From Craspedostauros australis (lineage: Eukaryota > Bacillariophyta > Bacillariophyceae > Mastogloiales > Achnanthaceae): a stretch of 64,000 bases of DNA. The position numbers and the translations under genes were made by a program. The stretch is from positions 1-64,000 of the forward strand of contig JAMXDE010000039.1 in the NCBI GenBank assembly GCA_026770025.1, written 5' to 3'. Below are positions 2,626-38,743 of this stretch, in pieces (within the stretch, counting starts at the first letter, position 1; each line of letters starts with the position of its first letter). The notes under the pieces were generated by a model. That model worked only from the letters and a program-made list of their open reading frames with translations, was not told the origin of the DNA and searched no databases.

Positions 2626-2697
2626 AGTATCGAACGGCACATCAATGAGAGAGATGAGAATGGACGGCATTGCAAACAACAACATGGCCAACACAGC

Positions 2698-4539: not shown

Positions 4540-4924
4540 CTCTGTTGTGATGCTTCTTTCTTGTTGTTGGTCGCACGCATTTTCGTGATGGATGGGAACA
4601 GAAAGATCCAAGCCACACGAACCAGACGCGTTTGATCAAGAGGAGACAAACACAGGCAAACAGAAGGAGGAGACCATGCGAACAAGACAACAACACACAC
4701 ATCACTCAACCCCATACTCAACCGCGTGAACAACAGACAATCGAATTGCCACTCATCCTACTATTCATCACACAGCGTATGGTACTCATACTCATACTAA
4801 TACAAGCTGTTGCATACACCACCATCGATATCTCTTCCATAGGCAGCTCCGACCACAGACATCCTCGACAGCCAATCCAACGTCGATCGTCCATCCACCA
4901 TCGACCATCCACCATCCTCTCAAA
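4540..4924 (+). promoter_or_regulatory. Conserved 5' flank of ankyrin gene A
   Basis: The 385 bases before the ankyrin start are recognisably related to 32830-33163, which precede ankyrin gene B. Shared blocks include GCATTTTCGTGATGG and a terminal stretch rich in CCATC/CAACC just before the ATG. Similarity is clearly lower than within the 3' flanks. The region therefore probably contains the promoter and 5' leader of the family. The exact transcription start cannot be set; CA-rich, G-poor sequence next to the ATG fits an untranslated leader. Confidence 0.4.
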
Positions 4925-6420: not shown

Positions 6421-7852
6421 TCCGAAGTGATTGTGGCGGACGGCACTGCCGAGGAAGAGGAGTGAAGCAGTTCACTCCAGCAACAGCGCTTGAGGAGCGA
6501 ACACATCATGGAGTGGAGTAGCGCAGACGGCAAAGTCTGAGCAATTTGATAGCAATTAGATATTCTCTATATTACTTATCAAGAGAGCCTTCAGACTCGC
6601 ATGTCGTGTGACCTGTACGAGTAGTCGCGGTGCGGGCACGGTGCAAAGAGATGACGAGCCATCAATCCAATGCCGCATCGCACATGCCAAGTCATGCATC
6701 AATTCAATGCCAACGCTCGTGTTGAGTGAAAAGACGAAAGTTGGTTTGCACATGCCGAAGAGAGTGCCGCAAGCGGAACCACCACGACATCAAACAATCG
6801 CTCGATCATTGTGAAGTTCAGTTGCGCGGCGTTTTGATGTGACGGGGAGACGAGATGGTTGTGAGTGTGAATGTCGGTGGGCGAGGAGCATGGAATATGA
6901 GCGCCGTGGAGCCAGCGCCGTGGAGCCTCCGCTGGATTCACATTCATATTCGTCATCTTGACCATTGGTGTCTTGTGATGCGTGAGCGTTTGCTCTGTTG
7001 TTCGGGCCAGGCATTGGGGCAGCAGATGAGCCAAGCAATGAAGCAAGAACCATGCGCCTCGCCAATTGCGCTTTGGTCATGCTTCATGCGATCGCTCGCC
7101 GCCGGCGGAGTACGCGAGGCTTGATGCGGTCCAACCACTTTGCTGGGATGGCGACTGCTCCAGCATCCAAAGCGATGCGTCTCATGCGCAGTGCATTGGT
7201 GCCATGCGATGCTTCGCTCCCAAGCCGTTGCTTTCCACACCTCAGAACGAATTCGCCGCAGGGTGAGAGTCTTGCTCCGTGCTCCAGCTTGACGATTTGA
7301 CGACTTGGGCATCGGCATCATCTGTCGAAAGATACGCGGAACCGAAGTCGACGCCAAGAGATCGCGCGCGTCGCCCACATGATGCGTGGTCCGACCTCAG
7401 CTCTCTCGTCCATCACCTGCACTTTTCCGCGCAACACGTGTGCCTGCCTAGTTCAGTTGGCGGAATTGAAGCAGCGAAGACCGCGGTCATTATCTCAGAG
7501 GTGTTTGTACCAATAGTCGTACGAGTAGAGGGCAGTGTGCTCGTACGAGTATCATGGTGGTTGGAGACCATGGTGCGCGTAGTTGTTGTGTGCTGTGGTG
7601 TTGGGTGAAAGGAGCGCACACGATCTTGGTGGTGTTGGTGATGTCTCCCTCTTCCACGATCTTCTGCTTCTTGGATTCTCGTTCTCAGTTGTTGATGTGG
7701 AGGTTGTGCGTGTTTGTCTTGTTGTGACATGCATAGCTCAACGTAAAATATGAAATATCAATACGCACTAGCTTGATACCACAATCACAATTTACAAAGG
7801 TTGAAGTTGTCGGCGCGACGTGGCCACAGACAGCAAGCCAAAATGATGTTAA
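5749..7852. repeat. Segmental duplication, copy A, left half
   Basis: This block is nearly identical to 34241-36358; the main length difference is a 14-bp step in a short GC-rich tandem (GAGCCAGCGCC units) near 6915/35410. It covers most of the BTB relic and about 1.4 kb beyond it. The block ends exactly at the TTAA where the 12.9-kb transposon is inserted, and its continuation resumes at 20740. Within 6421-7848 minus-strand frames (for instance 7413-7730) are open but show no recognisable family. Confidence 0.9.
7849..7852. repeat. TTAA target-site duplication, left
   Basis: TTAA immediately precedes the left terminal inverted repeat, and an identical TTAA at 20740-20743 follows the right one. 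The unoccupied paralogous site has a single TTAA at 36355-36358. Confidence 0.9.
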
Positions 7853-7890
7853 GACCCGCCTGAGCGAAAATAGTACACCTTTCTCGGGAA
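7853..7890 (+). repeat. Left terminal inverted repeat (38 bp)
   Basis: Begins GACCCGCCTGAGCGAAAATA and ends CTCGGGAA. It is the exact reverse complement of 20702-20739. Beyond it the two ends differ until the subterminal inverted blocks about 75-115 bp further in. Confidence 0.95.
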
Positions 7891-7960
7891 CGTCGTTTCT
7901 GTGTTGAAAAAAACTGCGTATATCTCTTCTCCTACATCAAATACATCATATGGAAAGAAC

Positions 7961-8006
7961 TAGAATTGTTCCGTCCAATCATTTTAAAGTTATGGAGGGT
8001 TGAAAA
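7961..8006 (+). repeat. Subterminal imperfect inverted repeat, left
   Basis: The block TAGAATTGTTCC ... ATTTTAAAGTTATGGAGGGT resembles the reverse complement of 20586-20632, which reads CTAGAATTG ... ATTTTATAAGTTATGAGGGC. Such paired subterminal blocks are typical transposase-binding regions; that role is inferred. Confidence 0.5.
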
Positions 8007-8463
8007 TCATGTCGAATCTACCTATTAGGTGAATAACGCACAGACGCTACAATGCTCATTGACGCTTCGATAGAGTCGCAGTGGTCATTCATCCCAAAAC
8101 GTTCTTTTTTCTTCCATCGTTTGGGCTTTGTTCGCGATTCTTGAATTTCCGGAGAGTGACTCTACCTTGTGCTCGCACAGAATCGTTGGTGTGAACACAA
8201 AACTTTTGTTGCATGGAGAGTGATGTGATGTATTGTGATGCAGTGCGATGTGCCATGGGCCGTCAACCAGGATGGTAGGCATGGTCCTTGTTCCTCTTCC
8301 TCCTGTCTGTTATGTCAGCGTGGTAGCAAGGGGGATGGACAGGCTGCAATGCACGAGACGCATACGATGCAAGTTGTGCAGCGCTGAAATAGATGGTGCG
8401 AATTGCTGGTCCCAAGATGGAAATGGATTGCACCCTCGCCACAGTCCTGTACGCAGTGGCAAC
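8007..8463. other. Transposon interior without recognisable gene
   Basis: Between the left subterminal repeat and the telomere-like array only short open frames occur, for example 8085-8282 on the minus strand. I see no domain and no structured repeat. Confidence 0.3.
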
Positions 8464-8735
8464 CCCAACCCACACATCTCTGACCCTAACCCTAACCCAG
8501 GTCTTGGCCCTCTGGACCCCTAGCCCTAACCCCAGCCCTAACCCTAACATTGAGTAACTTCATGGCTCTGTCTGAGTAATGTCAGCCACACGCAGTTGCC
8601 TCCCTCGTCTCTTCCAAGTTGCCGAAACTCCAACCGGAACCCCAACCCTAACTCTAGCCCTGAACAACTGCTTCCCTCCTCCCTAACCCAAACCCAAGCC
8701 AGAACCCCAGCCCTAACTCTAACCCTGAGCAACCT
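8464..8735. repeat. Degenerate telomere-like CCCTAA array inside the transposon
   Basis: CCCTAA/CCCCAA-type hexamers recur in several clusters (about 8480-8505, 8520-8550, 8640-8660, 8685-8730), with ACCCTAACCC as the clearest core. The repeat matches the TTAGGG telomere unit shared by many stramenopiles. Here it is interstitial, interrupted and degenerate, about 0.6 kb inside the left end of the transposon. It could be captured telomeric DNA or a short satellite of the element. Confidence 0.6.
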
Positions 8736-8790
8736 CATGACTCTGTCTGAACAACGTCATCTGCACACAGTTACCTCCTCCGTCGCTCTG
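8521..8790. repeat. Diverged direct repeat, about 90 bp, period about 180 bp
   Basis: Units at 8521-8612 and 8703-8790 each consist of CCCTAA-type hexamers, then TGAG-AAC-TCATG-CTCTGTCTGA and then CACACGCAGTTGCCTCC or a close variant. They differ at roughly one base in six. Together with the hexamer clusters they look like an old tandem duplication within the element. Confidence 0.6.
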
Positions 8791-9045
8791 GTGTTGCCCT
8801 TGTCGCGAACTCTTGCTTTTCTCCCACTTTTTTGCTTCCCGCACTGTTTCGATCCATTTCAACGGCCGCCGTTCCAGCGTTTTTGATTCGATTTCAATCA
8901 TTTTCGCTGTTTCTTTCACCGAAGGTATCCCCAAAACGTTCTTTGAACTCTTTGGCGCCAATGAAAAGTAATCAATATTGTCGATTGTGACTGCGGTATC
9001 CGGACAGACGCCATATCTGCTGAGTAAAACCAGGCGCCTTGGCAT
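8719..9045 (-). CDS. Unrecognised 108-residue ORF in the transposon
   Basis: A minus-strand ATG frame encodes a short protein with a plausible coding composition: a segment around GVCPDTAVTIDNIDYFSL, then a Lys/Glu-rich region predicted to be helical around KWIETVREAKKWEKSK. The frame remains open upstream to 9084 without another ATG, so an upstream exon is possible. The last 25 residues run into the telomere-like repeat region, which suggests that the original C-terminus is lost. No family recognised. Confidence 0.25.
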   Translation of the reverse strand: MPRRLVLLSRYGVCPDTAVTIDNIDYFSLAPKSSKNVLGIPSVKETAKMIEIESKTLERRPLKWIETVREAKKWEKSKSSRQGQHQSDGGGNCVQMTLFRQSHEVAQG

Positions 9046-9501
9046 GAAGGCTTCGTTCAGAATCTCAACGCACGAGCCATCCAAAGAGACAGACTCAGAG
9101 AAACAAAGACAAGAAACAAGTCAACACAAGAGATGAAAGGGGCCACGTGTTGACTGGTGGGAAACATCGCGTCGCGTGGCTTCGCATCATCCGTTGCCAT
9201 TTCCATTTCCATCGGCATCCCTTGGCAACTGCACGTACCATACTCGCTCGCCATCATCTTTTTTCAATCAAGAGCATCATGCACAAACACGTTCATCTTC
9301 TGAAGTGCTTCATCCCGCGCCCAACTGCCATCTCTCATTGCTTCGATCAATTGACCGATCGCCGCTCGTGTTCAGTTGGTGGGTTGTACCGTTACGGTCA
9401 CTCATTCCTGCTTGTGCGACCGTGACAATTCCAACGCATCACAACGCATCACACCACACCACAACACACCACCACCCACCACAACGCAAAGAGAAATGAA
9501 C

Positions 9502-11755
9502 ATGGCAGACGATCCCTCCATCTCATTGGAGGATGAGGATAACAAATCCTCCATGAGCTTCGACTCCAAGGCCAACGAGATGTGCCTCAACACGCTCGGC
9601 GGTCCCACCAAGCCCAAGACCAGATCCTGCAAGCTTCTCAATGTCCCCAAGACAAGACCAGATCCTGCTGCAAAATGAGGGACATCCTCCTGGCCGCAGC
9701 GGATTCTGATCCTTCGTCTCTCACAAAGGCGGGATGTTCCAGGACGATCCGCGAGTGGGTGAGAGGCACGGATATGGCACCAGCGCCTGTGGTCTTCAAA
9801 GGTGAAAAATCCGACATCGCGGTCTCCGCCTACGTTGACGATCAGAGGGTGCGCGGCAGGGGCATTTACGAAATCCGCACGAGAGCCATCACCCACCAGA
9901 CCACCGAATTCTGGATATGGAAGGTCAAGTACGAGCACATGCTGCCGCCCAGACATCAAACCCGAATCGAGACCGGAGATCCGCCGGATTTCAAACCCTG
10001 GCTTGCGCCAAAAGATTCGGATACCGATTTCGTTGGCACGTTCTCAGGGTCGCATTGCGACCCGACTGGTCATCTGAGGGGGCCAAGACATTCATGGCCA
10101 GATCCATATCTACGTCAACGCCACAAATTCGTCAATTGGATCAGCATCGGATATACCACACCCTCTTCGAACCTTCCAACAACCTCCCCCGCAAAAACCA
10201 CACAATCACGAAGAACGATCTCATCCTCCTTCACATTGATCATGCCAGATCGAAACTGGATTCTACCAATCAGAAGGGACCAACAGCTGTGTTTGCTGGA
10301 GTCGAGAGGGGCCCCAATCGCCTGCGCCAGCGTCCGATCCGCGGATCCCAACAAGGCCATCGATTCTGGGCCACACTGCCAGCTACACAGGCCCACCATG
10401 CTGTGGCTCGGCGATGCGTCCGTGTTTGATGGCGAAGACATGGAGATCATGAAGCATGTTGATCCAGAGGTCCACCTTGGCAGCAAGCTGCAATTGCTAC
10501 CAAGTCATTTCGATTCGAAAGGTTTGGACGTCATGCAACGCATCGCAGAAAGCAAGGACGGCACTGATGCTCTGCACATCATCATGTCGAAGAGGCGTCC
10601 CCACGAACAAGCGGACCCACCTTGCTCTACGCCTATGATGCCTTTGAGGTCGTGTCGGTCCGCATTACAACCTGCAACAGGTCTGGCATGGTTGGAATGT
10701 GGCGGCGTCTGCGCGGAAACCAACGTGCTTGGTGATGAAGAATTTGGTCCCAGCTGGCATCAGGTGAGTGCCAATTATTGTCGATGTTGTTGCTGCTGTG
10801 TATGCTTGTGTTGTTCACTCGCGCATTTGCACCTGGCATGTGCGCGGCGCAGAGCAGACCAAAAAATCAGGAATGGAAAGCGTGCACAAAACAGGCGCAT
10901 TGAAGGAGTATGACTTTCCAAGCTTGTGGGAGCACTTGTCATTGACTCTTTCATTCCATTCCATTTGTGTCCCCACTTCACTTCATGTCATACTCACAAT
11001 TGAATCAATGTCCGATTGGTTGGCATGGCATGATATGATACGAACTGCGCCCATTCTGTGGTACTGCTCGCACACACTCTCATCCCGAATGATGGACTCC
11101 ACTCCAACCATGTGTCTGAATTGCGGCAATATCGTCTTGCTGGAGGGCGCGGTGCACGAAAAGCGCACCAAACCACACGAAGACTTCATCGCAGTTGCTG
11201 AGGATTTGATTTGGTCGAAAAAATGAAAAGCCAAAACATTGGCCATCCGCGGCGGATCCGGCGGAGGATTGTTGGTGCGAATGATTTTGTGATGCTCCTG
11301 GACTGTTCAGCGCGGTGCGTTGGGCAGTCTCGATCCGTGTCGTCAAGCAGTCAAAGATCTGCATTCGGACGATGCAGCTATATGCGCGACGAATTTGGAT
11401 CCGGACGCGTCCGATTGGAGGTGTTCATGGGGCAGACCTCGCTGTACCACAGCATCAAATAGGATCCAAATTTTCTACCAATCCTATTCACTGCCGCACG
11501 AACGATGATCGGATACACCCAGCGCCTGTGTGAAAGATGATGAAGAAGCTGTGGAGATTGGTTCAGGGAAAGCGATGGCTGACATGCTACGATGAGAATG
11601 CGGAGGGCAGGAACGGTCTGCCTGCAACGCCGAAGCAGGACGCCTTCATGACTGCGCTGGCGTACGATTTCATGTTCAAGAAGTTGTCGAAGGATGCCAA
11701 AAAGTCAGCTGACGAGTATTGGACTGGATTTGGATTGATGCACGCAGTGTTCTAA
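9502..11755 (+). pseudogene. Degraded unrecognised cargo gene in the transposon
   Basis: Protein-like sequence runs along the plus strand in changing frames. An ATG at 9502 starts an acidic segment. Frame 9582-10060 carries phrases such as TEFWIWKVKYEHMLP. The next frame (about 10080-10310) carries NDLILLHIDHARSKLDST. The first frame returns around 10310-10620 (MLWLGDASVFDGEDMEIMK), and other frames hold MCLNCGNIVLLEGAVHEK (about 11107) and a terminal segment at 11537-11755 (DAFMTALAYDFMFKKLSK). A strong donor-like CAG|GTGAGT occurs at about 10764. The pattern is best explained by a multi-exon gene that has suffered indels. I recognise no family; it is not the transposase. Confidence 0.35.
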
Positions 11756-12033
11756 TCGTGTATCATACCATACATAGCAAGCACATGTGCGAATTGAGTA
11801 GATGCACGGCGATGGTGGTTCCATTGTGCATGTCAAGATCATAGCAACCGATAACATCAGAGCCACTCTATACATACCAACAACAGCTTCCTCTCGTAAT
11901 CCCTGTGGACACGCAGTTACTGCAGTTGATATCGCCATGCTGCAACTTGATAGTATCAATGTGACACAGAGTATAGTATCGTAGAATAGAATGCAATATA
12001 CTAATGTTGGCATACTTGCGGCGGTCGTCAGGA

Positions 12034-15000
12034 TCAATCATCGGAAGGTAGCAGGTTGCCATCAATCACATCAGCGTCCTGCCCGTCGTATGGGCGATCA
12101 TCCAGAACCTGCTCTTCGTGCGCTTCTTCGCTTTGAGTGTTCTCCTTGGATGCCATGATCCGCAGTTCATGCATCTCGTTCAGGCACTCTTCGCACTCCT
12201 CGTCATCCAAGTAGCCATTGTTCTCGAGGTATCTCTCCGCTCGACCGTCAGGAGCTGCCAGGAAGCATTTCAGGTACGTGATGTCCACCTTGATCCTCTG
12301 CTCCCAATCAAGCAAGAAAGGCCCGGCCATCAGCTCTTCGTGAAGCACATGAGCGCTCCTCCTCGTGTCCGGGTTCCTGCAAGCAATCGCAGCATCGCAC
12401 ACAATCTGCGCCACTTGTTTCGACATGGACGGTACCTTGGTTGCCGGAGGTGCTGATGGATCCTTCTTTCGTGAGGTGGCTTTGTCTGGATGGCAGATCG
12501 CCCATCCCTGCCTGATGGATTGAGGGAAGTCCACTGTGGCATTTCGTTCACAATTTGCCGTTTCTGCTGCTGCTGTTGCTGGTTCCAGAACACGCGAAGT
12601 GAGAACGCGTTTGAGCACTTCCGTCTTGGTGGTGCTCTTGTTTGTTGTTGTTGCGTGTCGTCGCTCAGTCGGTTGTGAGCCGCGGATATTCTGTGGATCC
12701 ATCACGAATGCTGGTGAGACCTCGGTGATGTCCTCATCATTGCAAGTGACATCGAGATGGAGAATGTCGAACTTGTCGATCTTGCCCTGCGTGATAGTCT
12801 CTGGATGCGTCAAGCCCGATGATGCTGTGACCTGGATTTTGTCATCAATCAGATCAATTTGATGGGTGGCGCGAACGGAAACTCGGTTGGTCGCGAATGC
12901 TTTTTCCTTTCCGTCCACACCACAGATGATGGCATGTCCCAATCTGCTCAGATCCAACAGAAGCGTCGTTGTCCCCTTGATGTTGGCAGCTTTCAGCACT
13001 GTGAAAATATCGCCTTCGGTGGCAATCTTTGCGTCCCTGGCACTGTCCACATACAACCTGAGTTGACGCGAGACAAAACCGAAGTGTCCGTCCAAAGCAC
13101 TCTTACCAGCTTGTGCCTCAGTGTACAGCCATTGGATGATTTGGAGTCGTGGTTTGGGAGGGCGGGTTCCGGTGTCTTGCTGTGCTTTTGCCTTCGTGGA
13201 TGATGCAGCCTTCGCGTCATGATAAGATGACTGTTCTGTGTTGATTTTGGGGGGAGGTGGATACTTAGCCTTGTCCTTGTGCTTGCCTTTGTTCTTGCCC
13301 GTCACCTTCCGCTTCTTCTTCTTCTCTGGCATCGTGTATTCAACTTCAACCTCTCCCTGGTTTAGTCCATGCATGTACCTCATCAGTGCCGGACTCGCGA
13401 AACAACTGGCATTATCACTTTGGAATACGACCTCTTTGACCCCCTTGTGAAGCTTCGGAAGCACGGTAGCATGAAGAATCTTGATCGCACCAGCAACTTG
13501 GACATGATCCTGCTTGTTCCGCCCCTTCATCACCATGTCAATGAATCGGTACTCGAACTTACCGTTCTTGTATTGGATTGTCATGACACCTAGGAGAAAC
13601 ATTCCATTTTTTCCGAAGAACGCTTTCTGAGCTTCCTGATTCTCCGTTGGGAGGATGCGTTGCTTGTGATCAAGCACGGCAATGATGCGATCTGGATGAT
13701 CCTTGAGGCGCTCCTTTTCCTCCGTGATCTTCTGCGCTTGTACCTTTCGTCTCACTTGGTGGGCCATGTACTGGCGCAGCGCGTCATCACACAGGTTAAT
13801 TGCTGCAGCCATGCGATCCAATTCAAATGTGTTGCCGGTGATGCTGTTGGTGGCAGTTTTCATGAAGTTGCGAACGCGAATCGGGAAGAACGTCATGACA
13901 TCTGCACATTGCTTGCATGCTTGGTTCACAAACGGGAGGGAGCCATTTGTCAGAGCGAACTCTGCGGAATGTAGATTATCCGCGGGTGACTTCACCTGGA
14001 TGTGTTTGTTTGCGTATTCCCATTTTGCAAATGAAAGAACAGAATCACTGTCTGTGATGATGGCCTGTGCCTCATTGAGAAGTTCAGACACGAGCTCTTT
14101 GTCTTGATGTTCCTTGTTCTGAGTCCGAAGCAGTTCCATGACTCTCTTGATCATGCTTTGGAAGTGCATGAATACAGTCAGAGTGTCTGTGTAGAAGGAG
14201 GACAGGCCAGTTTGACACTTGCCACGTCGCGTGAGCAATGTCAGGATACTCCTGAAGGCAGGCATACCAACTGGGTCATCTGTTGTGTTCTTGTACTTGG
14301 CAAAGAGCTGCTCTTCTGATATTGATCCGCAAATGAAGATGGGCAGGTCTGGGAACAGAACACCAGCCAACTTGACGCTCCTTGTGATGCCTGGCCGGTA
14401 CTGGAACATGGAAGTGAGAAACGAGACTACACCCTGGAGACTAGATTCCTTGACACGGTACTTGTAGTCTGCGTGTGGAAACTTGCCGCCAGAGAGGATC
14501 ATGCCACCAACATGTGACAGTCGCCTGTGTCCTGTACGAGACATGGATCGGCGTCCAAGCTTGATCTTTGCCTTGTCTCCTTTCGACAAGCTACTGTAGT
14601 GCGCGGCCAGGATTCGGGTGCAGCGCCTGGAGTCACAGGTCATTGCCAAAACCGCACGAGCAGTCAGCGATAGGTCTTGATTCCCCCAGAAGGCTAAATG
14701 ACAGAGAGTCTGCTCCAGCAACACAGGAGGGAGCTGTTTGCGATGTCGCACGAAGGTCATGGCTTCTGAAAGCTGTTCGGGGGGTTCTCTGCCAGGAAAC
14801 ATGTGCTGGGTTGACCCACCACAAACTCCATCCCAGACTCGGTTGATGAGACTCCAACGACCAGTCGCTGTCTTTCGTGGGAGACGTTCAAATCCATCCA
14901 CATGGAACCGTGAGAGGGGTTTGATGCTAATGCCAGCTGCTTCAAAAATGGCTTGCAGCATTTCTCTTCGATTCACCTTGCCCTCGTTGGCTGGAACGAA

Positions 15001-15678
15001 CGCAGCATCCGTGTCATCCTCACTGGTTGTACTCGCACAATCCGACTCGCACTCTTCCATAGACACAGCGACATCTCGTCGCGCGAGCACATCATCTCCT
15101 TCCTGTCGATGTGGCGCCCTGCATCTGGTTGCTGATGATTTGCGCTTGGGACGTGTGGGCGCAGCAGCATCACCACAAGTCCCAATGGAGAACGAATTGG
15201 CCTGTGGTACAAAGGCATTCACACCTGTGTGACGTGCACCTCCGCTGATGGATGATGCACAGTTTGGGCAAAATGGTGGCCTACTGCAGTGACTGCAGAA
15301 CAGGGTCAGACATTGCTTGCAAGGCATGATACCAAAGCAGTTGGGCCCCATGTAGTCAGATGTTGGAGTTGCCATGCTGTTGTTGGGGTGGAATGTAGAG
15401 TATGGTAGACCACCCACGCCTGTACCGATGTAGCTGGGGATGCAAAAGGAAGGAGGTTGTATGTTGGGAGGGACATGATGATTCGCAACCATGGGGAGAG
15501 GAGGACTGTGAACGCTGCCATTGTGGTTTGGTCCAACAGGTGCAGAGTATTGGTACGTTGCGTAGTGCCCATGAGGTGGTTGGGGATAGATGGATGTGCC
15601 AGCAGTTGCTGTTTGACGTTGCACCTTTGATTGGGATGGATTGGGGTCGCTGCTCGAATCCTCGCGTGGACGGGTCAT
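12034..15678 (-). CDS. DDE transposase, Sola-like, of the TTAA transposon
   Basis: From the ATG at 15678 the frame encodes 1,214 residues without interruption; it is open to another ATG at 15846, which would add 56 hydrophobic/Ser-rich residues. Order of parts: Pro/Ser-rich N-terminus; a Cys cluster at about 120-140 (CxxC repeated three times); a helical middle; then a likely RNase H-fold core. That core has Asp670 in AVLDHKQRILP, Asp755 in FQSDNASCF and Asp863 in AGKSALDGHFGFVSR. The last motif matches the GKGxxDGxGGxxKR phrase known to me from Sola-type transposases. A Lys-rich insert (around KKKKRKVTGKNKGK) separates the second and third Asp. The C-terminus is acidic with CEEC. The protein would cut the 38-bp ends and insert at TTAA. 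Superfamily assignment is inferred from motifs. Confidence 0.75.
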   Translation of the reverse strand: MTRPREDSSSDPNPSQSKVQRQTATAGTSIYPQPPHGHYATYQYSAPVGPNHNGSVHSPPLPMVANHHVPPNIQPPSFCIPSYIGTGVGGLPYSTFHPNNSMATPTSDYMGPNCFGIMPCKQCLTLFCSHCSRPPFCPNCASSISGGARHTGVNAFVPQANSFSIGTCGDAAAPTRPKRKSSATRCRAPHRQEGDDVLARRDVAVSMEECESDCASTTSEDDTDAAFVPANEGKVNRREMLQAIFEAAGISIKPLSRFHVDGFERLPRKTATGRWSLINRVWDGVCGGSTQHMFPGREPPEQLSEAMTFVRHRKQLPPVLLEQTLCHLAFWGNQDLSLTARAVLAMTCDSRRCTRILAAHYSSLSKGDKAKIKLGRRSMSRTGHRRLSHVGGMILSGGKFPHADYKYRVKESSLQGVVSFLTSMFQYRPGITRSVKLAGVLFPDLPIFICGSISEEQLFAKYKNTTDDPVGMPAFRSILTLLTRRGKCQTGLSSFYTDTLTVFMHFQSMIKRVMELLRTQNKEHQDKELVSELLNEAQAIITDSDSVLSFAKWEYANKHIQVKSPADNLHSAEFALTNGSLPFVNQACKQCADVMTFFPIRVRNFMKTATNSITGNTFELDRMAAAINLCDDALRQYMAHQVRRKVQAQKITEEKERLKDHPDRIIAVLDHKQRILPTENQEAQKAFFGKNGMFLLGVMTIQYKNGKFEYRFIDMVMKGRNKQDHVQVAGAIKILHATVLPKLHKGVKEVVFQSDNASCFASPALMRYMHGLNQGEVEVEYTMPEKKKKRKVTGKNKGKHKDKAKYPPPPKINTEQSSYHDAKAASSTKAKAQQDTGTRPPKPRLQIIQWLYTEAQAGKSALDGHFGFVSRQLRLYVDSARDAKIATEGDIFTVLKAANIKGTTTLLLDLSRLGHAIICGVDGKEKAFATNRVSVRATHQIDLIDDKIQVTASSGLTHPETITQGKIDKFDILHLDVTCNDEDITEVSPAFVMDPQNIRGSQPTERRHATTTNKSTTKTEVLKRVLTSRVLEPATAAAETANCERNATVDFPQSIRQGWAICHPDKATSRKKDPSAPPATKVPSMSKQVAQIVCDAAIACRNPDTRRSAHVLHEELMAGPFLLDWEQRIKVDITYLKCFLAAPDGRAERYLENNGYLDDEECEECLNEMHELRIMASKENTQSEEAHEEQVLDDRPYDGQDADVIDGNLLPSDD

Positions 15679-15846
15679 GATGCGATAGCGATGGTGGCTG
15701 ACGGACGATGTGGGTGGGGGGGAAGGCACAGATGATTCTGAATGATCTCGATGTTGGGGAGCACTGAGTGTTGTGCTGACATTGCAGATACGAGAGCACA
15801 GCAGACAGCGACAACAATACACAACAAACCAAAATGACACATGCAT

Positions 15847-16023
15847 ATTCGTTCACAACAGCATGAGGGATGTGTTTGTGTCGAGATCGGCAGCAACAGT
15901 TCAACGGTCGCTCATTGGTGCATACGTGGTTGCGATTGGAGAATGTATGTGGAACCATCTGCGATTTTTATTCTGGCGAAAGAGTGAGTGTGACGCGGCG
16001 CCAACACAACGAGAGAGCAAGCG

Positions 16024-16060
<37 letters not shown>

Positions 16061-16897
16061 CGAGTGCTACATCAATCCGTCTATCCATTCATTCTCTATT
16101 GAATTTCATAATACTTTTTATTCTCATCGATTGTCACCTCGATTTCTGATCATTTGCATTGGCATCGTGAGAGACGATCGAGTGTGTATCATGATTACGT
16201 CCCTGGTGGCCGAACGCAACACGGTGGAATACAATCGATCTGTTCTTCGTTGGTTGCCATTTGGAGTTGTGTTGGCTGTCGGCGCCGATCGTCTCAGATG
16301 CGACGATTGAAGTATCCGCAGTGAATGGGCAAGAGTACAGTTGTTGGGTGTGCGATGTGCGATGTGTGATGTGTGATGTGTGATGTGAGTTCGCTGGGGG
16401 CGGACATTCTGTTCTGCTTGTTGCTTTTGATTGGTGCGTCGGAGATTGGGTGGCTGGTCCATGAATCTGTCATTTGTGATCCCATCGTGTTGTTTTCTTG
16501 ATTTTCGGACATACTTTGGTTCTTCGTTGTTCATTTGCTAAATGTCATTCATCCTCGTGAGCAACAAACGACATTTACACTGAACCATTGATGATTCCCA
16601 TCCAATCAGATTTGACCGAGGTGCGCCAAATTCACAACAACAACTCCCACACCACACCCACATTTTCGACCAAGACAACAAAACTGGATCGGGCATCGAC
16701 CAAGGCATGCAGTGTATTGTCGAGTATGAGACAAGTGGAAGACGCCAAGTCGATCTTCGAACCATGATGGAACCGCAAAAGCGCAGCGCTCACAATGGTG
16801 CAGGAACGCGTCCGTGGTTCCACATATTTCAGGAGCCGCTGCAATTTGTCCACTGCCGTCGCTGATCGTCAATTCTGTTGCTTGAGTCGTTGGCCTC
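15847..16897. other. Transposon interior with microsatellites, no clear gene
   Basis: This stretch upstream of the transposase contains a (GA)n run (16025-16058) and a (GATGTGT)n-like run at about 16340-16385. The 300 bases before the transposase ATG presumably hold its promoter, but no motif stands out. Confidence 0.35.
16025..16058. repeat. (GA)n microsatellite
   Basis: About 17 uninterrupted GA units in the transposon, about 200 bp upstream of the transposase frame. Confidence 0.95.
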
Positions 16898-18087
16898 GTG
16901 ATGCCAAGCGGTAGGAAATCATGCCCCGCACCATCTCCAGCATCCGGGCCATCCGCAAACCTGCGTAACCATCTGTATCAATTCCATATGCATCTCCTTC
17001 CATTGGTAGAATTCGAAAAGGCCAACACCACACGGATCCGCGAGCAATTGAAAGTCAACACACAGTCTGCTGGAGCCCGGAGCCCTCGCAAGAGGATTGC
17101 GAGCAACATCAATTCGGAGCGTGTAGATCGCTCAGGCACAACTTCCCCTTTCCCATCAGCCGGACACCATGCATTATTGCGCAATACGAATGGTTGATGC
17201 AACTGTAATGGCATAGACTCACCTCAATCGCGCCAATCGTGCATGACACTGACGATGCCCTCCAGAAGGTGCATGTCGACGGAGAGGAATTTGCATGGGT
17301 ATGGATTTGGTTGGGTAGAAATAGCACCAGACGGAATTGCGAAACAAAAATTGGACGACTACAAAGTAAACAATGAGGTGGAGGAGATGAGAGTGGTTCG
17401 TCCCTCCAGACGTCGAAACCGATAGAATGCGTGATGGAAACGTTCAGGCGAGGGTGCAAAAATGTTAGTGCGAAGAATATCACGGGGTCCCTACATAGGT
17501 ATGCTTTTGTTGGCATAGGAATAGCACCAGGCGGAATTGCGAAATAAAATTGAACGACTACAAAGTAGACGACAAGATGAAGAAGACGACGCCAGTCCGA
17601 GCATGTGGCTGTCGAAACCGATGGAGTCCGTGAACGCAGCGGAAAGGGGAAGATATTGCAACTTTATCGTGAGAAATAACACGAGAGAAAACGAGAATCC
17701 GGCAACACAACGCGCCGAACTAAAAATGGCACAGGGTGAATCGCATGCATCGTATTGGTGGGTGGTTATGTCGGAAGCGTTGAAATCAAGGTATGGAGTT
17801 CATCCAACGGAGAGGATCGTGCAAAGGATGAATGCAGTAATGTTTGCAATTGTGCTACGCACACAACAACATCGTATACCACTATTGAAAAATTCAGTAG
17901 ATTGATTTGGGAGAAATTCGGGGAACCAGAAATTGGACACAAAGGACCCAAGACAAACAAAGAGTTGGCACGGCACAACTCCAGGTTGTGGCTCTCACAC
18001 TCCTGCGCAAGCCAGAGTGGGTATGATGGTGCTGTCGTACGCTGTCTAGTGTATGAACATACCTATCGTTCAATGATAAGAATCTAA
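16898..18087 (+). pseudogene. Fragmented coding remnant, weak BED-finger resemblance
   Basis: A plus-strand segment at 16910-17000 reads SGRKSCPAPSPASGPSANLR and then NHLYQFHMH. The Cys, SANLRNHL and H-x2-H-like pattern faintly recalls BED zinc fingers of hAT-type proteins, but the second Cys is absent. Further on, frames at 17537-17905 and 17880-18087 contain protein-like phrases (YWWVVMSEALKSRYGVHPTE; EKFSRLIWEKFGEPEIGHKG) in different frames. This could be a nested, decayed element or cargo gene. The evidence is weak and no function is assigned. Confidence 0.2.
17300..17682. repeat. Diverged tandem duplication, about 190-bp units
   Basis: Units at about 17300-17483 and 17500-17682 share ATAGCACCAG-CGGAATTGCG, ACGACTACAAAGTA, GTCGAAACCGAT and ATAACACG or close variants, with a period of about 200 bp. 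They sit inside the transposon's right half and are noticeably diverged, so the duplication is old. Confidence 0.65.
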
Positions 18088-18501
18088 TCAGTGGATTGCT
18101 AGAGTAGGCACAAGGTGGGCACCTGCAGCATAACCACAGAATGCTACGAGGAAACCATCGCCGCCGACACCAAGCAGCATGCCGAATGGAATAAGATTCT
18201 TGAATGATTGCTCCCAAATGCTCTGCTCCAAGTACAATGCAATCTCCATGATGCTGGTAACATTGTCTGGTACAACTGGACTGACTCCAAGAGCAAATGT
18301 GCTGACTTCTGCCCATGAGCTAATCGGTGACTTGCGCCATTCCCTTTCACAGTTGCGTGTAGCAATTTGTGGCTGCACGTACCGGCGTTTGCTCCGCGTA
18401 TCTGCACCATGTCCTGCGATGGTACCAATACGGCGACTATGGTTCGTCGCCAAGTGTGTCGATACGGTATCCTTGGGATGATCACAGCTCGCTCCATCCA
18501 T
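18088..18501 (-). CDS. Unrecognised 137-residue ORF in the transposon
   Basis: A minus-strand ATG frame ends in a hydrophobic C-terminal third (around FGMLLGVGGDGFLVAFCGYA), suggesting one or two membrane segments, after a more polar part containing VVPDNVTSIMEIALYLEQ. The composition looks coding, but I recognise no family and an overlapping minus-strand frame (18144-18548) is also open. Possible cargo remnant. Confidence 0.25.
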   Translation of the reverse strand: MDGASCDHPKDTVSTHLATNHSRRIGTIAGHGADTRSKRRYVQPQIATRNCEREWRKSPISSWAEVSTFALGVSPVVPDNVTSIMEIALYLEQSIWEQSFKNLIPFGMLLGVGGDGFLVAFCGYAAGAHLVPTLAIH

Positions 18502-20585
18502 CCATTCGTCGATCTACCCAATACGTATGGTACTGGTATCAGTAGCATGGCATGTCGTGTCGTGTCGTGTCGTGTCGTATCGGAAAGTCACGAATGTATT
18601 CTGGAGTGTGCGCGATTTGTCGCTCGGCTTGTGAATCAGGATGCGCAGTTCTCTTGCAAATGGACACCAGTTCTCAGCGCAGAGCAGTGGCTCACATTTT
18701 GCTCTCACACGAACACAAGTCAATCGTGACGAGAGGACGAGCACGCGCCATCAATTCGAAAATGTTTGTGCTTGCGAGGAAATCGGAACAAGCTCTCAGC
18801 CTCATCCACACTACCTCATCCATTAGTATGGTACTATTGTTTCATTGCTCAGAACATCCCATCCATCTGCTCCAACGCTTTCCGTACAGATGATCACCAC
18901 CAGATTCTTGTCTATTACTCATCCAACAACCGCTGGGGGAGACAACAAATCGCAACCGCCTGTGCAACAGCGTTCACCAATCATCAACCGCCAGTGCCAT
19001 TCATGGTTGGCGCCGGCTGTTGCTTGCTCTGTGACTATCCAGACTGCCACGAACGGCCCCAGCAGACAACGGAGAATGACGACGATCAGCGAGAGCAAGT
19101 GATGTTACCAAATCCATGGGCGCAAAAAAAAAGGCACACGATGGTAGCGCTGTCGTCGCGTGGAGCAAAATTGTCATCGTATTGCCGCAGCACCAAGAAG
19201 AATCGCTGTCGTATGCGACGCTGCTATCAAACCAATACAATAACCCTAAACCCAATCCACAAAATGGTGTCCAAACGGTCAGCACGTTGTTGTTCCTTGT
19301 CTTTGATCCACAACAACTCTGGAGACGATAACGCACCATGGAACTGATCGTCATACCTATCTTATGAGGGTAACAATGCTGACAATCCTCGCACTCCAAG
19401 TCTGCCTGCGCCGCTGACCACCAAGCGCACCTTGTGGATGCAACACCATCGTTGACGGTTGGAATTGACGGTGGAATGTTGATTCTGCGGAAGTCAACCG
19501 ATCCATCACAAGATCGAACCTCATCAGCCTCCGATGGGCGAATAATACAAATGTGGGCAGGTAGGATAAAAACAGATGCATTATATGATATGATATACTG
19601 CTGTACTCCCCTTCTTGTGTTCAGTGCGGTACATCATTCTGTTCTCGCAGAGCCACTCCGCAGTTTTGCGGCGCACCAGAACCGATTCTTCTGGGGAATG
19701 TGTGTCAACAGGCACAAAGCAGTCCAGAATTCGCGAGCGCAGTGTCTGAATTGGTTCTGTTCCACACAGGTTTCTAACAAAAAAACATATACTACGTCTG
19801 TATGTCCACCGAAATCAGAGGTAGAACAGAGCGATTCTTTGGGTGCGACATGGAACAAAACCAGGAAAAGGAATGAAACATGATCCAGGAAAGAGCAAAA
19901 TGAGCTCACAAACTTCCACAACAACAACGAACATCAAATCCTCCAGGAGAGGCGCAACGAACGGAAACTCACCAACTCGAGAAGAGCACAGCAGCGTACA
20001 TCAGGAATGTGCCGTAGTCGCCAGCTGACTTTATTTCGCAGAACAAGAACCTTATCCACCTGCACCTATCTTGTCACAGAGTCTCGTGACCCTTGTATGA
20101 AATGAGAGACCACACGTGGAACGCGCGAGATCATGGTGCGACGAACCCGGCAGTGATCTCAGTTCCCGCGCTCACGAAGTACTAGCAGCATTGGCAAAAG
20201 CAAAAGTAACATCCCACTATACCTGGTGGAATATGCTGATAGCTCTGCACCTCCATCCCACCCTAATGTCGTATGGTACAGCGCAGTGCGCGTACGTACC
20301 ATCGCATTCTGACGCAGTTTTTCTCCTCACCTGTTGTTCCAAGTCCACCGCGAGAAACTGCGTGCAATCAATTGGGGCCAAAAACAGCCGAAATGTATGC
20401 CCGTTCGCACGACTGTAGACACGTCTGAGTTCAGCTTCGAGCGCCTTGCTGTGAGTCCGTCTGAGAGAGGAAAAAAGAACATTTTCGCCGCTCGCCGACG
20501 TCCAACTTGGAGACAATGACGAGTCGCATCCATGTCCGATCGAAAGCTAAAAACCTAAAGCACGGGCTACTGTGGGGAATTTCTC
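18502..20585. other. Transposon right interior, no recognisable gene
   Basis: Only short open frames and a (GTGTC)n run at 18552-18578 were seen. A single TAACCCTAAACCC phrase occurs near 19241, too short to call a telomeric array. This 2-kb stretch seems to be non-coding or decayed. Confidence 0.35.
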
Positions 20586-20632
20586 AACTCAAGCCCTCAT
20601 AACTTATAAAATATAAAGTGTAGCAATTCTAG
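20586..20632 (-). repeat. Subterminal imperfect inverted repeat, right
   Basis: Reverse complement reads CTAGAATTGCTACAC ... ATTTTATAAGTTATGAGGGCTTGA, paired imperfectly with the left block at 7961-8006. Its distance to the right end is about 107 bp, close to the left block's distance. Confidence 0.5.
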
Positions 20633-20701
20633 GAAAGTCAATCCGTCACTTTCTCATAGAGAGGAACATCATATTAAATTTATAGGGAAATCTGAGAGGA
20701 C

Positions 20702-20739
20702 TTCCCGAGAAAGGTGTACTATTTTCGCTCAGGCGGGTC
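20702..20739 (-). repeat. Right terminal inverted repeat (38 bp)
   Basis: Exact reverse complement of 7853-7890; ends in TCAGGCGGGTC directly before TTAA. Confidence 0.95.
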
Positions 20740-20743
20740 TTAA
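20740..20743. repeat. TTAA target-site duplication, right
   Basis: Second copy of the target TTAA. The sequence that follows (AACCAAAGTTCATGC) continues the paralogous block as at 36359. Confidence 0.9.
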
Positions 20744-33163: not shown

Positions 33164-34105
33164 ATGCCGAATGTTACGAACGAACAACTCGTTGATGCTG
33201 CCGTCGCAGGTGACATGTCGGTGTTGAAGGAGTGGAAGAAGCAGAACGAGACGCAGAATGAAGGAGTTGATGTCAACATGGTTACAGGCGGCTTTGGTTC
33301 CACTCCCCTCCATGTGGCATGCTCCAACGGCCAGCTGGAGTGTGTGAAGTACCTCATCAAATCATGTGAGGCGAACATCAACTGCCAAAACATCGATGGT
33401 GCCACTCCCCTTCATTTGGCATGCTACAACGGCCACCTGGGGTGTGTGAAGTACCTCATTGAATCATGTGAGGCAAACATCAACTGCAAAACCAACGATG
33501 GTTCCACTCCCCTTCATGTGGCATGCCTCAACGGCCACCTGGAGTGTGTCAAGTACCTCACCGAATCAGGTGGAGCGAACATCAACTGCCAAAGCAATCA
33601 TGGTTCCACTCCCCTTCATTACGCATGCCACGGCGGCCACCTGGAGTGTGTGAAGTACCTCATTAAATCATGTGAGGCGAACATCAACTGCCAAAGCAAC
33701 AATGGTTCCACTCCCCTTCATTGGGCATGCCACAGCGGCCAGCTGGAGTGCGTGAAGTACCTCATCAAATCAGGTGAGGCGAACATCAACTGCCAAGACA
33801 GCGATGGTGACACTCCCCTTCATTGGGCATGCATTAATGGCCACCTGGAGTGTGTGAAGTACCTCGCCGAATCAGGTGGAGCGAACATCACCTGCCAAAA
33901 CAACAATGGTGACACTCCCCTTCATTGGGCATGCCACAACGGCAAGCTGGAGTATATCGAGTCCCTCATTAGAGGACTTTCGCCTTCAGTTCACCCACAA
34001 CTGCAACAACGCTGGCAACAATACGAGCAAGAGAATGAACACAAACACAGTAGCCACAAGAGGACCAACATCAGCATTGGAGAAGACCGACTCAGATCTT
34101 TCTAA
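33164..34105 (+). CDS. Ankyrin-repeat protein, copy B
   Basis: A 313-residue protein: N-terminal helix-like segment, then seven ankyrin repeats of about 34 residues (residues about 45-285, core STPLHWACHSGQLECVKYL), and a short charged tail rich in His, Lys, Gln and Glu (QYEQENEHKHSSHKRTN). Repeat units are very similar at DNA level. Copy A has four units, so unit number has changed recently. Ankyrin repeats mediate protein binding. The stop at 34103 results from one extra base relative to copy C (TTTCTAA versus TTCTAAA), after which the family tail would continue in another frame. Start chosen by the conserved leader and by agreement with copy A. Confidence 0.8.
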   Translation: MPNVTNEQLVDAAVAGDMSVLKEWKKQNETQNEGVDVNMVTGGFGSTPLHVACSNGQLECVKYLIKSCEANINCQNIDGATPLHLACYNGHLGCVKYLIESCEANINCKTNDGSTPLHVACLNGHLECVKYLTESGGANINCQSNHGSTPLHYACHGGHLECVKYLIKSCEANINCQSNNGSTPLHWACHSGQLECVKYLIKSGEANINCQDSDGDTPLHWACINGHLECVKYLAESGGANITCQNNNGDTPLHWACHNGKLEYIESLIRGLSPSVHPQLQQRWQQYEQENEHKHSSHKRTNISIGEDRLRSF

Positions 34106-34912
34106 ACTGGGAACAGGACAGACACCATCTTCTTGTGTGGACAAGGCGACGAACAGCAACTAACCAAGGCAACTGCTGAAGTCCTCATGATCACCGTCCC
34201 ACCCATTGAGACACTGATCGACAAAGGAATCCAACATCAGCACACGAATGATGGCACTGACGACGGTGCAGCCCCCATCCAAACAACCATCCCTCTTCCC
34301 AACCTTCAACCAAAACACGTCCGATACATCCTCCAATGCATCTACACAGGCGAGAAATCCTTCAATGACAGCGCTCGTGACAACGCCGCCACACACATCG
34401 GCGCTCACTCCAACTCTCACCACGATACAAATGCCTCTCACCAGCCAACTCCCATCCTCACTGGACAGGATGATCTGCACTAGCTGATCCTTGTGGCCAA
34501 CGAGTTTGGCTTCAGGTGACTCAAGCTTGTTCTTGAAGCGGAGTTGGCCCACAAATATCTCACAGAGGATACCATGATAGATGCGGTGATATTCGCCGAT
34601 CAACACAACTGCTTGGTGTTGTAGGATGCAGCAATGAGAATGGCAGCTGAAAGTGAGAAGGATATGTTCACTCATCTAGATTTAAGCAAACTGATTCTAC
34701 AACCCCAACTGATGACGGAGATCCAGGTGTTTTGCGGTGGAAGAACAGAGAGCGCTAGTATTGATGATGAGTACAACCACCTGTCCATGATGGACCTGTA
34801 CAAGGTTGTTGATGAGGATGAGGGTACAGCACAAGTGGATTCATACATGGATTGGGCGACATTGGTGGGCTTCGTGCGCTCCATGAGAACCAGCTCTATG
34901 AGAACCAATTGA
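34106..34912 (+). pseudogene. Decayed BTB/POZ domain downstream of ankyrin copy B
   Basis: Counterpart of 5641-6420, nearly identical from 34241 on, with the same interrupting codons: TAG 34481, TGA 34517, TAG 34622. Here the ankyrin and BTB parts happen to be in the same frame apart from the stop at 34103. The C-terminal 92-residue piece (34634-34912) equals that of copy A. Shared stops show that decay came before this duplication, or that gene conversion spread the decayed version. Confidence 0.6.
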
Positions 34913-36354
34913 TCCGAAGTGATTGTGGCGGACGGCACTGCCGAGGAAGAGGAGTGAAGCAGTTCACTCCAGCAACAGCGCTTGAGGAGCGAACACATCA
35001 TGGAGTGGAGTAGCGCAGACGGCAAAGTCTGAGCAATTTGATAGCAATTAGATATTCTCTATATTACTTATCAAGAGAGCCTTCAGACTCGCATGTCGTG
35101 TGACCTGTACGAGTAGTCGCGGTGCGGGCACGGTGCAAAGAGATGACGAGCCATCAATCCAATGCCGCATCGCACATGCCAAGTCATGCATCAATTCAAT
35201 GCCAACGCTCGTGTTGAGTGAAAAGACGAAAGTTGGTTTGCACGTGCTGAAGAGAGTGCCGCAAGCGGAACCACCACGACATCAAACAATCGCTCGATCA
35301 TTGTAAAGTCCAGTTGCGCGGCGTTTTGATGTGACGGGGAGACGAGATGGTTGTGAGTGTGAATGTCGGTGGGCGAGGAGCATGGAATATGAGCGCCGTG
35401 GAGCCAGCGCCATGGAGCCAGCGCCATGGAGCCTCCGCTGGATTCACACTCATATTCGTCATCTTGACCATTGGTGTCTTGTGATACGTGAGCGTTTGCT
35501 CTGTTGTTCGGGCCAGCCATTGGGGCAGTAGATGAGCCAAGCAATGAAGCAAGAACCATGCGCCTCGCCAATTGCGCTTTGGTCATGCTTCATGCGATCG
35601 CTCGCCGCCGGCGGAGTACGTGAGGCTTGATGCGGTCCAACCACTTTGCTGGGATGGCGACTGCTCCAGCATCCAAAGCGATGCGTCTCATGCGCAGTGC
35701 ATTGGTGCCATGCGATGCTTCGCTCCCAAGCCGTTGCTTTCCACACCTCAGAACGAATTCGCCGCAGGGTGAGAGTCTTGCTCCGTGCTCCAGCTTGACG
35801 ATTTGACGACTTGGGCATCGGCATCATCTGTCGAAAGATACGCGGAACCGAAGTCGACGCCAAGAGATCGCGCGCGTCGCCCACATGATGCGTGGTCCGA
35901 CCTCAGCTCTCTCGTCCATCACCTGCACTTTTCCGCGCAACACGTGTGCCTGCCTAGTTCAGTTGGCGGAATTGAAGCAGCGAAGACCGCGGTCATTATC
36001 TCAGAGGTGTTTGTACCAATAGTCGTACGAGTAGAGGGCAGTGTGCTCGTACGAGTATCATGGTGGTTGGAGACCATGGTGCGCGTAGTTGTTGTGTGCT
36101 GTGGTGTTGGGTGAAAGGAGCGCACACGATCTTGGTGGTGTTGGTGATGTCTCCCTCTTCCACGATCTTCTGCTTCTTGGATTCTCGTTCTCATTTGTTG
36201 ATGTGGAGGTTGTGCGTGTTTGTCTTGTTGTGACATGCATAGCTCAACGTAAAATATGAAATATCAATACGCACTAGCTTGATACCACAATCACAATTTA
36301 CAAAGGTTGAAGTTGTCGGCGCGACGTGGCCACAGACAGCAAGCCAAAATGATG

Positions 36355-36358
36355 TTAA
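36355..36358. other. Unoccupied TTAA target site
   Basis: GATGTTAAAACCAAAG here corresponds to GATGTTAA | transposon | TTAAAACCAAAG in copy A. It is either the ancestral empty site or the product of precise excision. Confidence 0.9.
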
Positions 36359-37329
36359 AACCAAAGTTCATGCAAAGTAAACTTCAATATTCAGAATCAC
36401 TGATAGCCAGGTGCCTACATGTACTATTGAGTTTTATTTGTAAACGATGTGTTGTTGAGATATTCTATCATACAATTTGCAGTTATTTGGATGGTTTTTG
36501 GTTGTGCTCTAGACTAGTTTATTGTATAATAACACATCACCCACAAAACTCTGCAACGAGCGCTATCGTTTGCTGCATTCTTCGTTGGGGGAGCGCGCAG
36601 CCGTCCGCTGGGAAAGGACACTCTCCAACACATTGATCCGTGGAGGGACAAAGTCAATTAGCCGGAGGCGCACCTGCCGATTCTTCCAATGGCTTCTCGT
36701 CTCTTTAAATGTTGCATGTACATCTCCAGTTTGAAACGGAACCGCCTTGTTGGTGCTGCCGACGGGTTCGCGGAAAGGGGAGGGATCTCGTTTGGTGTAA
36801 CGCCTCATTAGTCTCCGCGCGGCACGTCCCAGGCAAAGGCCACGAGATTTGGCGAGAGAGCCTCCTTGGTTCACTCCTCATCCCTTTCGGCGTCGGTGCG
36901 CTCTTTCATTGACAATGGTTGGCTGCTGGTCCGATGGCTGCTGATCTGGTGGCTGCTGAATCGGTCTGCAAGCATGGTGCATTGCCCCACATCGCAGCCT
37001 ATTCGCCATGATTCAAACAGGCAACGTTCCATTCGTCTCGGACTGTCTCCTATGTCTATGTATAATACGTATGGCACACATGCAAGTACCTGTATAATAT
37101 ATTGAAGGGCTTTGGTATACTCAAGTGCTCTACTATTACATTGCCTCTATGGTGTTGTATGATAATGGTGTTGTATGAATGTACATGGTGTTGATGTTGC
37201 ACGTTTGCAACATCTTCTTTTGTGTATTTCAGTGTGGGGTATGATGCCTACAGCGGGATTCCTCGATGGGGTGCAACTCGTCATTGGAAAGGAATTGACG
37301 ACGCGTGATCATCATGCAATCATTGTCGT

Positions 37330-38076
37330 TCAAACCCGTTGCCTCTGGTGACACGCAATCTGCTGCTGCAGCATGAAGCCTTGAAATCGCATCTGGCACA
37401 TACGGAAATGATGCGGCCCGATCGTTTGCAACAGAGTTATCAGGACATCCTGGCGCAGGCTCTTGCTGTGCAGACTTCGCTGCGATCGGTGTAGTTCGAC
37501 GCATTGCATGACGCGCAGCTTGGCGATGGCGCAGACCTGTGGCGATTCCACCTGTTTGAGGTAATGGAAGATCTCGTGGATGAAGAGGAGGAACTTCGAC
37601 GCGGCCTTCGATCTGTTGGTCAGCGCCGGGAGCTTCTTGGGGTACGATGTTTGAGTCATGATGAGACTCATGTTGCGGTTGGGTGTGGCGGGGACTGTTG
37701 GAGTTTGCTGCAGCACGATGGGACTGCGCTTTTGGCTTTGATTGGGCTTGGTACAGTGGCTGGTGTTTGTTGTTTGGCCGTTTGTTTGCATGGCGGTTGT
37801 TTGCAGTATGCGTGGTTGTTGGGTTGTCTGTTTGGTCTTTCGCAGCTTTATGGTTGGTGTTGGTTGATGTAGGAACGATGGAAGCAAATCGTAAGAGTGA
37901 GGGCTACCGACGAAGGTTTCCTCCGGTGGCTCTGAGTGTTGCCGGCCATTACCTCCCGGCCTTGCTCTCTTCATGATGTTGTCGCTGTTGTCATCATTGG
38001 GGGTAGTTGTTCCTCTCTCTCTTGGTCTCGTATTCTGTCCGCCTTTGCGCCACCTCCGTTGTTTTGCGCTTGGCAT
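37330..38076 (-). CDS. Unrecognised 248-residue protein, copy B
   Basis: Same reading as 21715-22461, with no residue difference noticed. It starts at ATG 38076, has a disordered Thr/Asn/Pro-rich N-terminal part and a helix-prone C-terminal domain (around KFLLFIHEIFHYLKQVESPQ). Identity may reflect recent duplication rather than selection, because the surrounding non-coding sequence is equally conserved. Confidence 0.4.
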   Translation of the reverse strand: MPSAKQRRWRKGGQNTRPRERGTTTPNDDNSDNIMKRARPGGNGRQHSEPPEETFVGSPHSYDLLPSFLHQPTPTIKLRKTKQTTQQPRILQTTAMQTNGQTTNTSHCTKPNQSQKRSPIVLQQTPTVPATPNRNMSLIMTQTSYPKKLPALTNRSKAASKFLLFIHEIFHYLKQVESPQVCAIAKLRVMQCVELHRSQRSLHSKSLRQDVLITLLQTIGPHHFRMCQMRFQGFMLQQQIACHQRQRV

Positions 38077-38743
38077 GGCCAATCCCAAGTTTTGTGAGGC
38101 GGCTTCCTGTTTTTGGGCATTCGGATTGGGGCCTCGTCGAGGTTCGGATTGCTGAAGTATGTGATAGAGGCTGCTTTGTCACAAGTGTTATGGAGCCCAT
38201 CATGATTTGTGTCGTTCGCGACAGTTCGTGGAATCGTGCACATAACGACGTGTGTTCGGAGTCCAGTCTTCCCATCAAAACGGTTCGGGTTGGTGCCGTC
38301 CAATGCTTCCTCCTTTCGTGGACGGGAGAGAGTGGCTTGATGCGCGTACGACTACGGGCTACACCAAGGTCGCTATTCCTCTGTTGCTGTCGTCGTTGTT
38401 GGCGTTCCTGCGGCCCTTGTCCCCATTGTCGTTTCTTCACTCCCCTTCTCTCACTCTCTCTCGGTCACTCTGGCCTTGTGATGTTCCCTCCCTTGTTCTT
38501 GTTCCACTCCGACGTGTTTGGAAACTCGACGCTAACAAAGCAGAGGATCGGGTTTTTGTTCGAGGCTATTCGCACAGCAGGCGTCGTCTTCGGGTTGCCA
38601 GTATCACTGGACTCTTGGTTGGTTGGCAACATCGCCAGTTTCCCACTTCGGATCGACAGTCTGGGCGAGCATCATGGCACTACGACTATGTACTGGGAGG
38701 GGATCGTCGATGTCATTCGCCCATTCACTGCTTTATGCCATTG

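Follow-up and report, generated by a model that had tools for sequence, protein, structure and literature searches.

What is the 12.9-kb segment that lies between two identical inverted 38-mers in the genome of the diatom Craspedostauros australis, and does the TTAA at either border place it among the transposons specific for that site? The segment lies in the first 64,000 nucleotides (positions 1 to 64,000, hereafter the window) of contig JAMXDE010000039.1 in assembly GCA_026770025.1; the genome searched comprises 74.8 Mb in 90 contigs, labeled C1 and so on, and the window is the start of C37. An earlier note, made from the letters of the window alone, had described a complete TTAA transposon of a new autonomous family. 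We hold with high confidence that the element belongs to an autonomous family of terminal inverted repeat (TIR) transposons, moving presumably by cut and paste, with a probable transposase of 1,214 amino acids, an NTAN target and a decayed passenger derived from the host. This reading is carried by the borders, the duplications, the copy number, a shared passenger with an intact host relative, and an open reading frame (ORF) under selection.

The two 38-mers (positions in the table below) begin and end the element with GA..TC. When the flanks are joined across the element, they are found uninterrupted at 36300-36420, where TTAA occurs once, at 36355, and the element is absent; this site belongs to a paralogous block situated 15.6 kb past the right end of the element. 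The left side of the duplicated block (5055-7856 vs. 33600-36362) is 94.3% identical and the right side (20740-23130 vs. 36355-38743) 99.2%; measured per 200 bp, identity stays at 97-100% over ~2 kb to the left and right of the site, and farther away it drops to 86-95% in places. The perfect inverted ends, the TTAA flanks and the near-identical empty block reported earlier were therefore all recovered, the last by both the joined-flank match and the block alignment, and together they support the exact borders of the element. The same note's "subterminal inverted blocks" were not confirmed: in the outer 1,000 bp the best inverted match besides the 38 bp measures 16 bp (E 0.048), and the repeat search reported no further inverted repeats of ≥25 nt. 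No long terminal direct repeats were seen in the element.

The empty block could represent a precise excision product instead of the state before insertion, its single TTAA being free of any footprint. The flank identity of 97-100% indicates a duplication that is either young or recently homogenized, and is compatible with insertion or excision in either order. If the element entered one of two blocks that were already duplicated, one event fewer is needed, and this is the simpler account, although one site cannot separate an ancestral from an excised state; we consider excision rather unlikely.

A core pattern of the ends (24 bases, two degenerate, zero mismatches allowed) occurs 53 times in the genome, 27 and 26 times on the two strands, while the reversed pattern, used as a control, occurs 0 times, which excludes chance. 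These cores form 23 inverted pairs, 12.9-46 kb apart, plus seven single ends, confirming that the ends are reused as inverted pairs elsewhere; one of the single ends (C12:1945619) is the window copy repeated, since the end of C12 duplicates the start of C37. Short inverted pairs (miniature inverted-repeat transposable elements) with the exact core were not found, cores with mismatches not being counted. An exact end core is missing from the neighborhood of several transposase copies, such as those at C1:1.40 Mb and at C8:0.30 and 1.79 Mb, and the searches of the genome against itself scored 40 of 48, 37 of 499 (transposase ORF) and 39 of 56 (right region) candidates, so that the copy counts are lower bounds.

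Ten copies (the window copy and nine others) are colinear and were aligned end to end. By segment, those on C32, C6, C29 and C4 are 95.9-99.8% identical to the window copy, and those on C17, C26, C7, C22 and C18 89.5-94.0%; the pairs on C3, C15:934k and C6:2664k share the same outer end, the last 11-12 bases of the 38 being divergent. Over 12,890 columns, the window copy shares 99.8% identity with that on C32, the two differing in their flanks and duplications (TTAA vs. GTAA), and the copies on C6 and C59 are identical over their first 1,598 bp at different sites. Near-identical copies at different sites show that the family has moved recently, as had been proposed for the window element. Three of the longer copies were opened: the extra length on C29 is a 7.26-kb copia-type retrotransposon, and the copies on C26 and C18 carry inserts of 793 bp and 713 bp inside the transposase, with short flanking direct repeats. 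Additional cargo is thereby ruled out as the cause of the greater length in these three; the long pairs on C2, C5 (two), C6, C33, C36 and C59 were not opened.

Flanks were examined at all 23 inverted pairs, and 21 of these have matching 4-bp duplications: ATAA/TTAT in 13, TTAA in five, ATAT in two and GTAA in one. Every matching site has a central TA, giving the target rule NTAN. Inverted terminal repeats in many dispersed copies and a duplication of fixed length (4 bp), two hallmarks of a cut-and-paste TIR transposon, are thus present. A second comparison of occupied and empty sites comes from C59. Here a window-type element is directly bordered by a flank on one side and on the other by a related element whose inner end differs, and ATAA is present at both borders; in its empty counterparts on C1 (81/84 bases) and C49 (83/86) the flank adjoins the related end directly. 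The region C59:54112-113714 is an array in which the element adjoins the related element with a shared ATAA; the same flank recurs at the far end in inverted order, and it also meets the related ends on C1 and C49. With TTAA at only 5 of 21 sites, a TTAA-specific family is ruled out, and the assignment of the element to TTAA-specific groups is withdrawn. The insertion site is less specific than the label implied: TTAA on both sides of one copy is not enough to call an element TTAA-specific.

Membership in the Kolobok or piggyBac superfamily, toward which TTAA at the window copy and four other pairs would point, is improbable, given the 16 other duplications and an ORF that matches no transposase profile. 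Kolobok elements are in general TTAA-specific and have 5′-RR..YY-3′ ends, which the GA..TC of the present element fits, as does a 4-bp duplication that is sometimes TTAA; the exceptional KolobokP lineage has duplications of 3-4 or 4-5 bp and no strong target specificity (PMC9587614), which weakens the argument from TTAA and makes Kolobok less unlikely. However, KolobokP possesses long terminal direct repeats (PMC9587614), and neither these nor an accessory nuclease were seen here. PiggyBac integrates at TTAA (PMC7351741), and TTAA at some sites and a footprint-free empty site are in keeping with it; its ends, however, are CC..GG (PMC10045372), its targets do not extend as here beyond TTAA, and its domain DDE_Tnp_1_7 does not match the ORF; of its 160 matches in the genome, none of those listed lies inside the 23 pairs. 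Targets, ends and profile together rule piggyBac out. Many of the 160 matches lie in long open frames, and this abundant piggyBac-type population is separate from the 12.9-kb family and probably active.

The putative transposase ORF lies on the minus strand. The open frame extends up to 15852; since the stretch 15679-15852 and its equivalents are open in many copies in shifting frames, the start is best placed at the methionine at 15678, which is conserved in the copies tested. In the search of the genome against itself, 16 of the 40 matches listed begin no later than residue 42 and continue uninterrupted to the end. The ratio of nonsynonymous to synonymous substitution rates (dN/dS), calculated for nine copies, comes to 0.16-0.20 when the first two groups are compared and to 0.27-0.31 for comparisons with L064 and L065; inside a group, where changes are few, it ranges from 0.21 to 0.74, and the window and C32 ORFs are separated by 0 synonymous and two other changes. 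The ORF is therefore under purifying selection between groups. In the ten-copy alignment, it is also the part with the most consistent third-position excess, as judged by eye. CxxC motifs are found near the N-terminus (residues 177-197 of P0001), and D727, D812 and E911 or D920 (P0001 numbering; four aligned copies, 89-97% alike) are candidate catalytic residues, so that a DDE transposase with an RNase-H fold is suggested at the level of motifs. As no family match rose above chance, the role rests on position, conservation and the reading of motifs, from which we surmise that the protein is likely a transposase. Scans with a few short peptide patterns revealed no relatives in viral contigs or in bacterial and archaeal genomes, collections with few or no eukaryotes. 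Among the ORFs searched against Pfam, which did not include every short one, none encodes an integrase, polymerase or capsid protein as expected of a Polinton/Maverick or provirus.

Giant families of the brown alga Ectocarpus have apparently been moved in trans (PMC12477816), and the present element could likewise be non-autonomous, its ORF being another passenger. We regard this as very improbable: several copies have a broken or partial ORF, but among the ten aligned copies the consistent third-position excess is limited to it, and selection between groups has preserved it. Some observations do weigh against an autonomous TIR family. The 40 listed matches include, besides the uninterrupted ones, transposase copies that are partial or bear stops. 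Searches of the ORF against Pfam, NCBIfam, PHROG and PDB returned nothing above chance. Finally, the duplications do not match in two pairs, C2:2630141-2643846 and the 46-kb C59:67365-113714, each of which has ATAA/TTAT. The C2 pair is flanked by ATAA and TTAT, which are complementary and not identical, and recombination between copies is a possible source of this arrangement. With 23 inverted pairs and an open, selected ORF, the family nonetheless looks autonomous, as the earlier note had supposed.

The supposed cargo is real, although not functional. It consists of a prolyl-oligopeptidase (S9) gene of host origin, whose relative is located at C12:326-329 kb; the element segment is colinear with this locus, introns included. 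The window type is without ~620 bp of the host gene (the end of exon 1, the intron and the start of exon 2), and the copies on C17 and C22 give a single run of matches over ~3.3 kb of the host locus (81%, introns included). As far as tested, the C12 gene is intact, with no stops in its three exon blocks, which match a host paralogue on C3 at 39%, 52% and 59%; its last exon matches Peptidase_S9 at 1.7e-25. The S9 pieces of the C26 copy gave no match to Pfam, and the link to S9 came via the host genes. Because 10.2 kb around the C12 gene contain no end core and an element match of only 30 bp, this gene is likely the donor or the donor's closest survivor, and capture presumably proceeded from host to element. 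In each of seven element copies (window, C26, C17, C22, C32, C7 and C4), the main exon has 8-17 indels of lengths not divisible by three, many of them common within a group, and a protein alignment reveals stops or frame changes in five copies, including C15 and C8. A working gene is thus ruled out in all nine copies examined. The indels shared within groups and the retained introns suggest that capture predates the split into groups and took place via DNA, not mRNA. Two short stretches at C32:355088-355939, away from any end pair found, are 83-91% identical to parts of the captured gene and perhaps represent an old fragment of it.

For the autonomous family the following course of events may be envisaged. 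A single DDE-type transposase would recognize the 38-bp ends, excise the element and reinsert it at a 4-bp NTAN site (mostly ATAA/TTAT or TTAA), which is duplicated in the process. An ancestor would have acquired ~3.3 kb of host DNA with the prolyl-oligopeptidase gene before the present groups split, and the passenger would have decayed afterward. A bolder proposal, to which we give little credence at present, is that the transposase founded a DDE lineage of eukaryotes not described so far. This lineage would cut at NTAN, would have radiated into at least two types of end (outer part shared, inner part divergent) with its dead passenger on board, and could insert into the duplications of its relatives to yield abutting arrays.

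Redundant contig ends do occur in the assembly, the last 16 kb of C12 (C12:1937781-1953820) repeating the first 16 kb of C37 (window 2-16055), but given the 22 other pairs, of which 20 have matching duplications, an assembly artefact is scarcely credible. The two contig ends differ by eight mismatches and many small indels over the 16 kb; probably C12 and C37 either join at the shared segment or represent two haplotypes.

Features of the 12.9-kb element and of its empty counterpart (window coordinates)
Feature	Position	Strand	Remarks
Left target-site duplication, TTAA	7849..7852		single copy at empty paralogous site 36355-36358
Left 38-bp terminal inverted repeat	7853..7890	+	core present 53 times genome-wide, control 0
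Left subterminal region, no gene recognized	7891..9052	+	present in all 10 aligned copies
Captured host segment, decayed prolyl oligopeptidase (S9) gene	9053..11820	+	blastn 78-81% to host locus, three pieces
Putative transposase ORF, 1214 aa from conserved Met	12034..15678	-	dN/dS 0.16-0.31 between groups
Right region, no coding periodicity seen	15853..20701		83-100% among listed genome matches; imperfect direct repeat 17294-17589
Right 38-bp terminal inverted repeat	20702..20739	-	
Right target-site duplication, TTAA	20740..20743		
Paralogous empty block	33600..38743	+	unoccupied TTAA 36355-36358

The remaining parts of the element showed no sign of a gene. Within the left subterminal region, degenerate telomere-like CCCTAA stretches at about 8485-8730 surround a 76% direct repeat. 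The identity range of the ~4.8-kb right region refers to the genome matches listed, the place of each inside an element not having been checked; the units of its direct repeat are 200 bp apart, and neither coding periodicity among the copies nor an Rfam match was seen. Outside the element, 102-bp tandem repeats are found in both members of the duplicated block (5054-5425 and 33295-33971) in different copy numbers, those of the second encoding ankyrin repeats (PF12796), and a copia-type retrotransposon with gag, zinc-knuckle and RVT_2 matches lies between the blocks on the minus strand (25596-30337). The host genome has 61 matches to the chlorophyll-binding family PF00504; for one such protein, no PDB chain was found at E 1e-60, and at 1e-20 the best are LHCI proteins of 9vfj, followed by fucoxanthin chlorophyll proteins, a pattern that by itself suggests a fucoxanthin-type alga, perhaps a diatom.

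By duplication length, the nearest candidates among known systems are Sola, Kolobok and Ginger. Sola elements as a whole make 4-bp AT-rich duplications. This feature, the inverted ends and the existence of giant passenger-bearing members in a stramenopile make Sola our leading guess for the superfamily, which is unproven. In this stramenopile, Ectocarpus, the family Sola1-1_Ec32 measures 21.5 kb and has an accessory gene that is encoded opposite to the transposase, and giant families of the alga contain fixed nested insertions (PMC12477816), whereas bivalve Sola1 elements average 5.4 kb (PMC10294476). The 12.9-kb element is thus large, as had been remarked, but its size has a clear precedent. 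Sola2 elements have AWWT duplications and captured Fanzor1 genes (PMC3627910); only the two ATAT among the 21 duplications fit AWWT, and in place of a methyltransferase or Fanzor the present family carries a decayed protease of the host. Ginger1 and Ginger2 resemble the present family in duplications of 4 bp or 4-5 bp (PMC10045372), yet their transposases are integrase-like (PMC2836005) and the ORF matches no integrase profile. Kyakuja-Dileera-Zisupton (KDZ) elements share the giant size, and their transposases can exceed 1,300 residues (PMC12477816). The KDZ model PF18758 failed to match the ORF even when E values of up to 10 were admitted, and a genome-wide search was also silent, including its controls. 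Zisupton elements have an 8-bp duplication.

Pack-MULEs and other gene-capturing TIR elements likewise hold host gene DNA between inverted ends (PMC6431247), but the present family has retained a probable transposase of its own, and one and the same captured segment is shared by the copies examined. Among open-license papers, none of the titles listed describes a diatom element of this kind, and no paper on a captured prolyl oligopeptidase was found. Large DNA transposons in algae are only recently coming into description, and here a single genome displays the history of one: empty sites, a traceable host relative, the decay of the passenger, a selected probable transposase and near-identical copies. 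The family lends itself to testing how oversized cut-and-paste elements retain their mobility under a load of useless DNA, and when set beside the systems above it is a new family of an already known kind.

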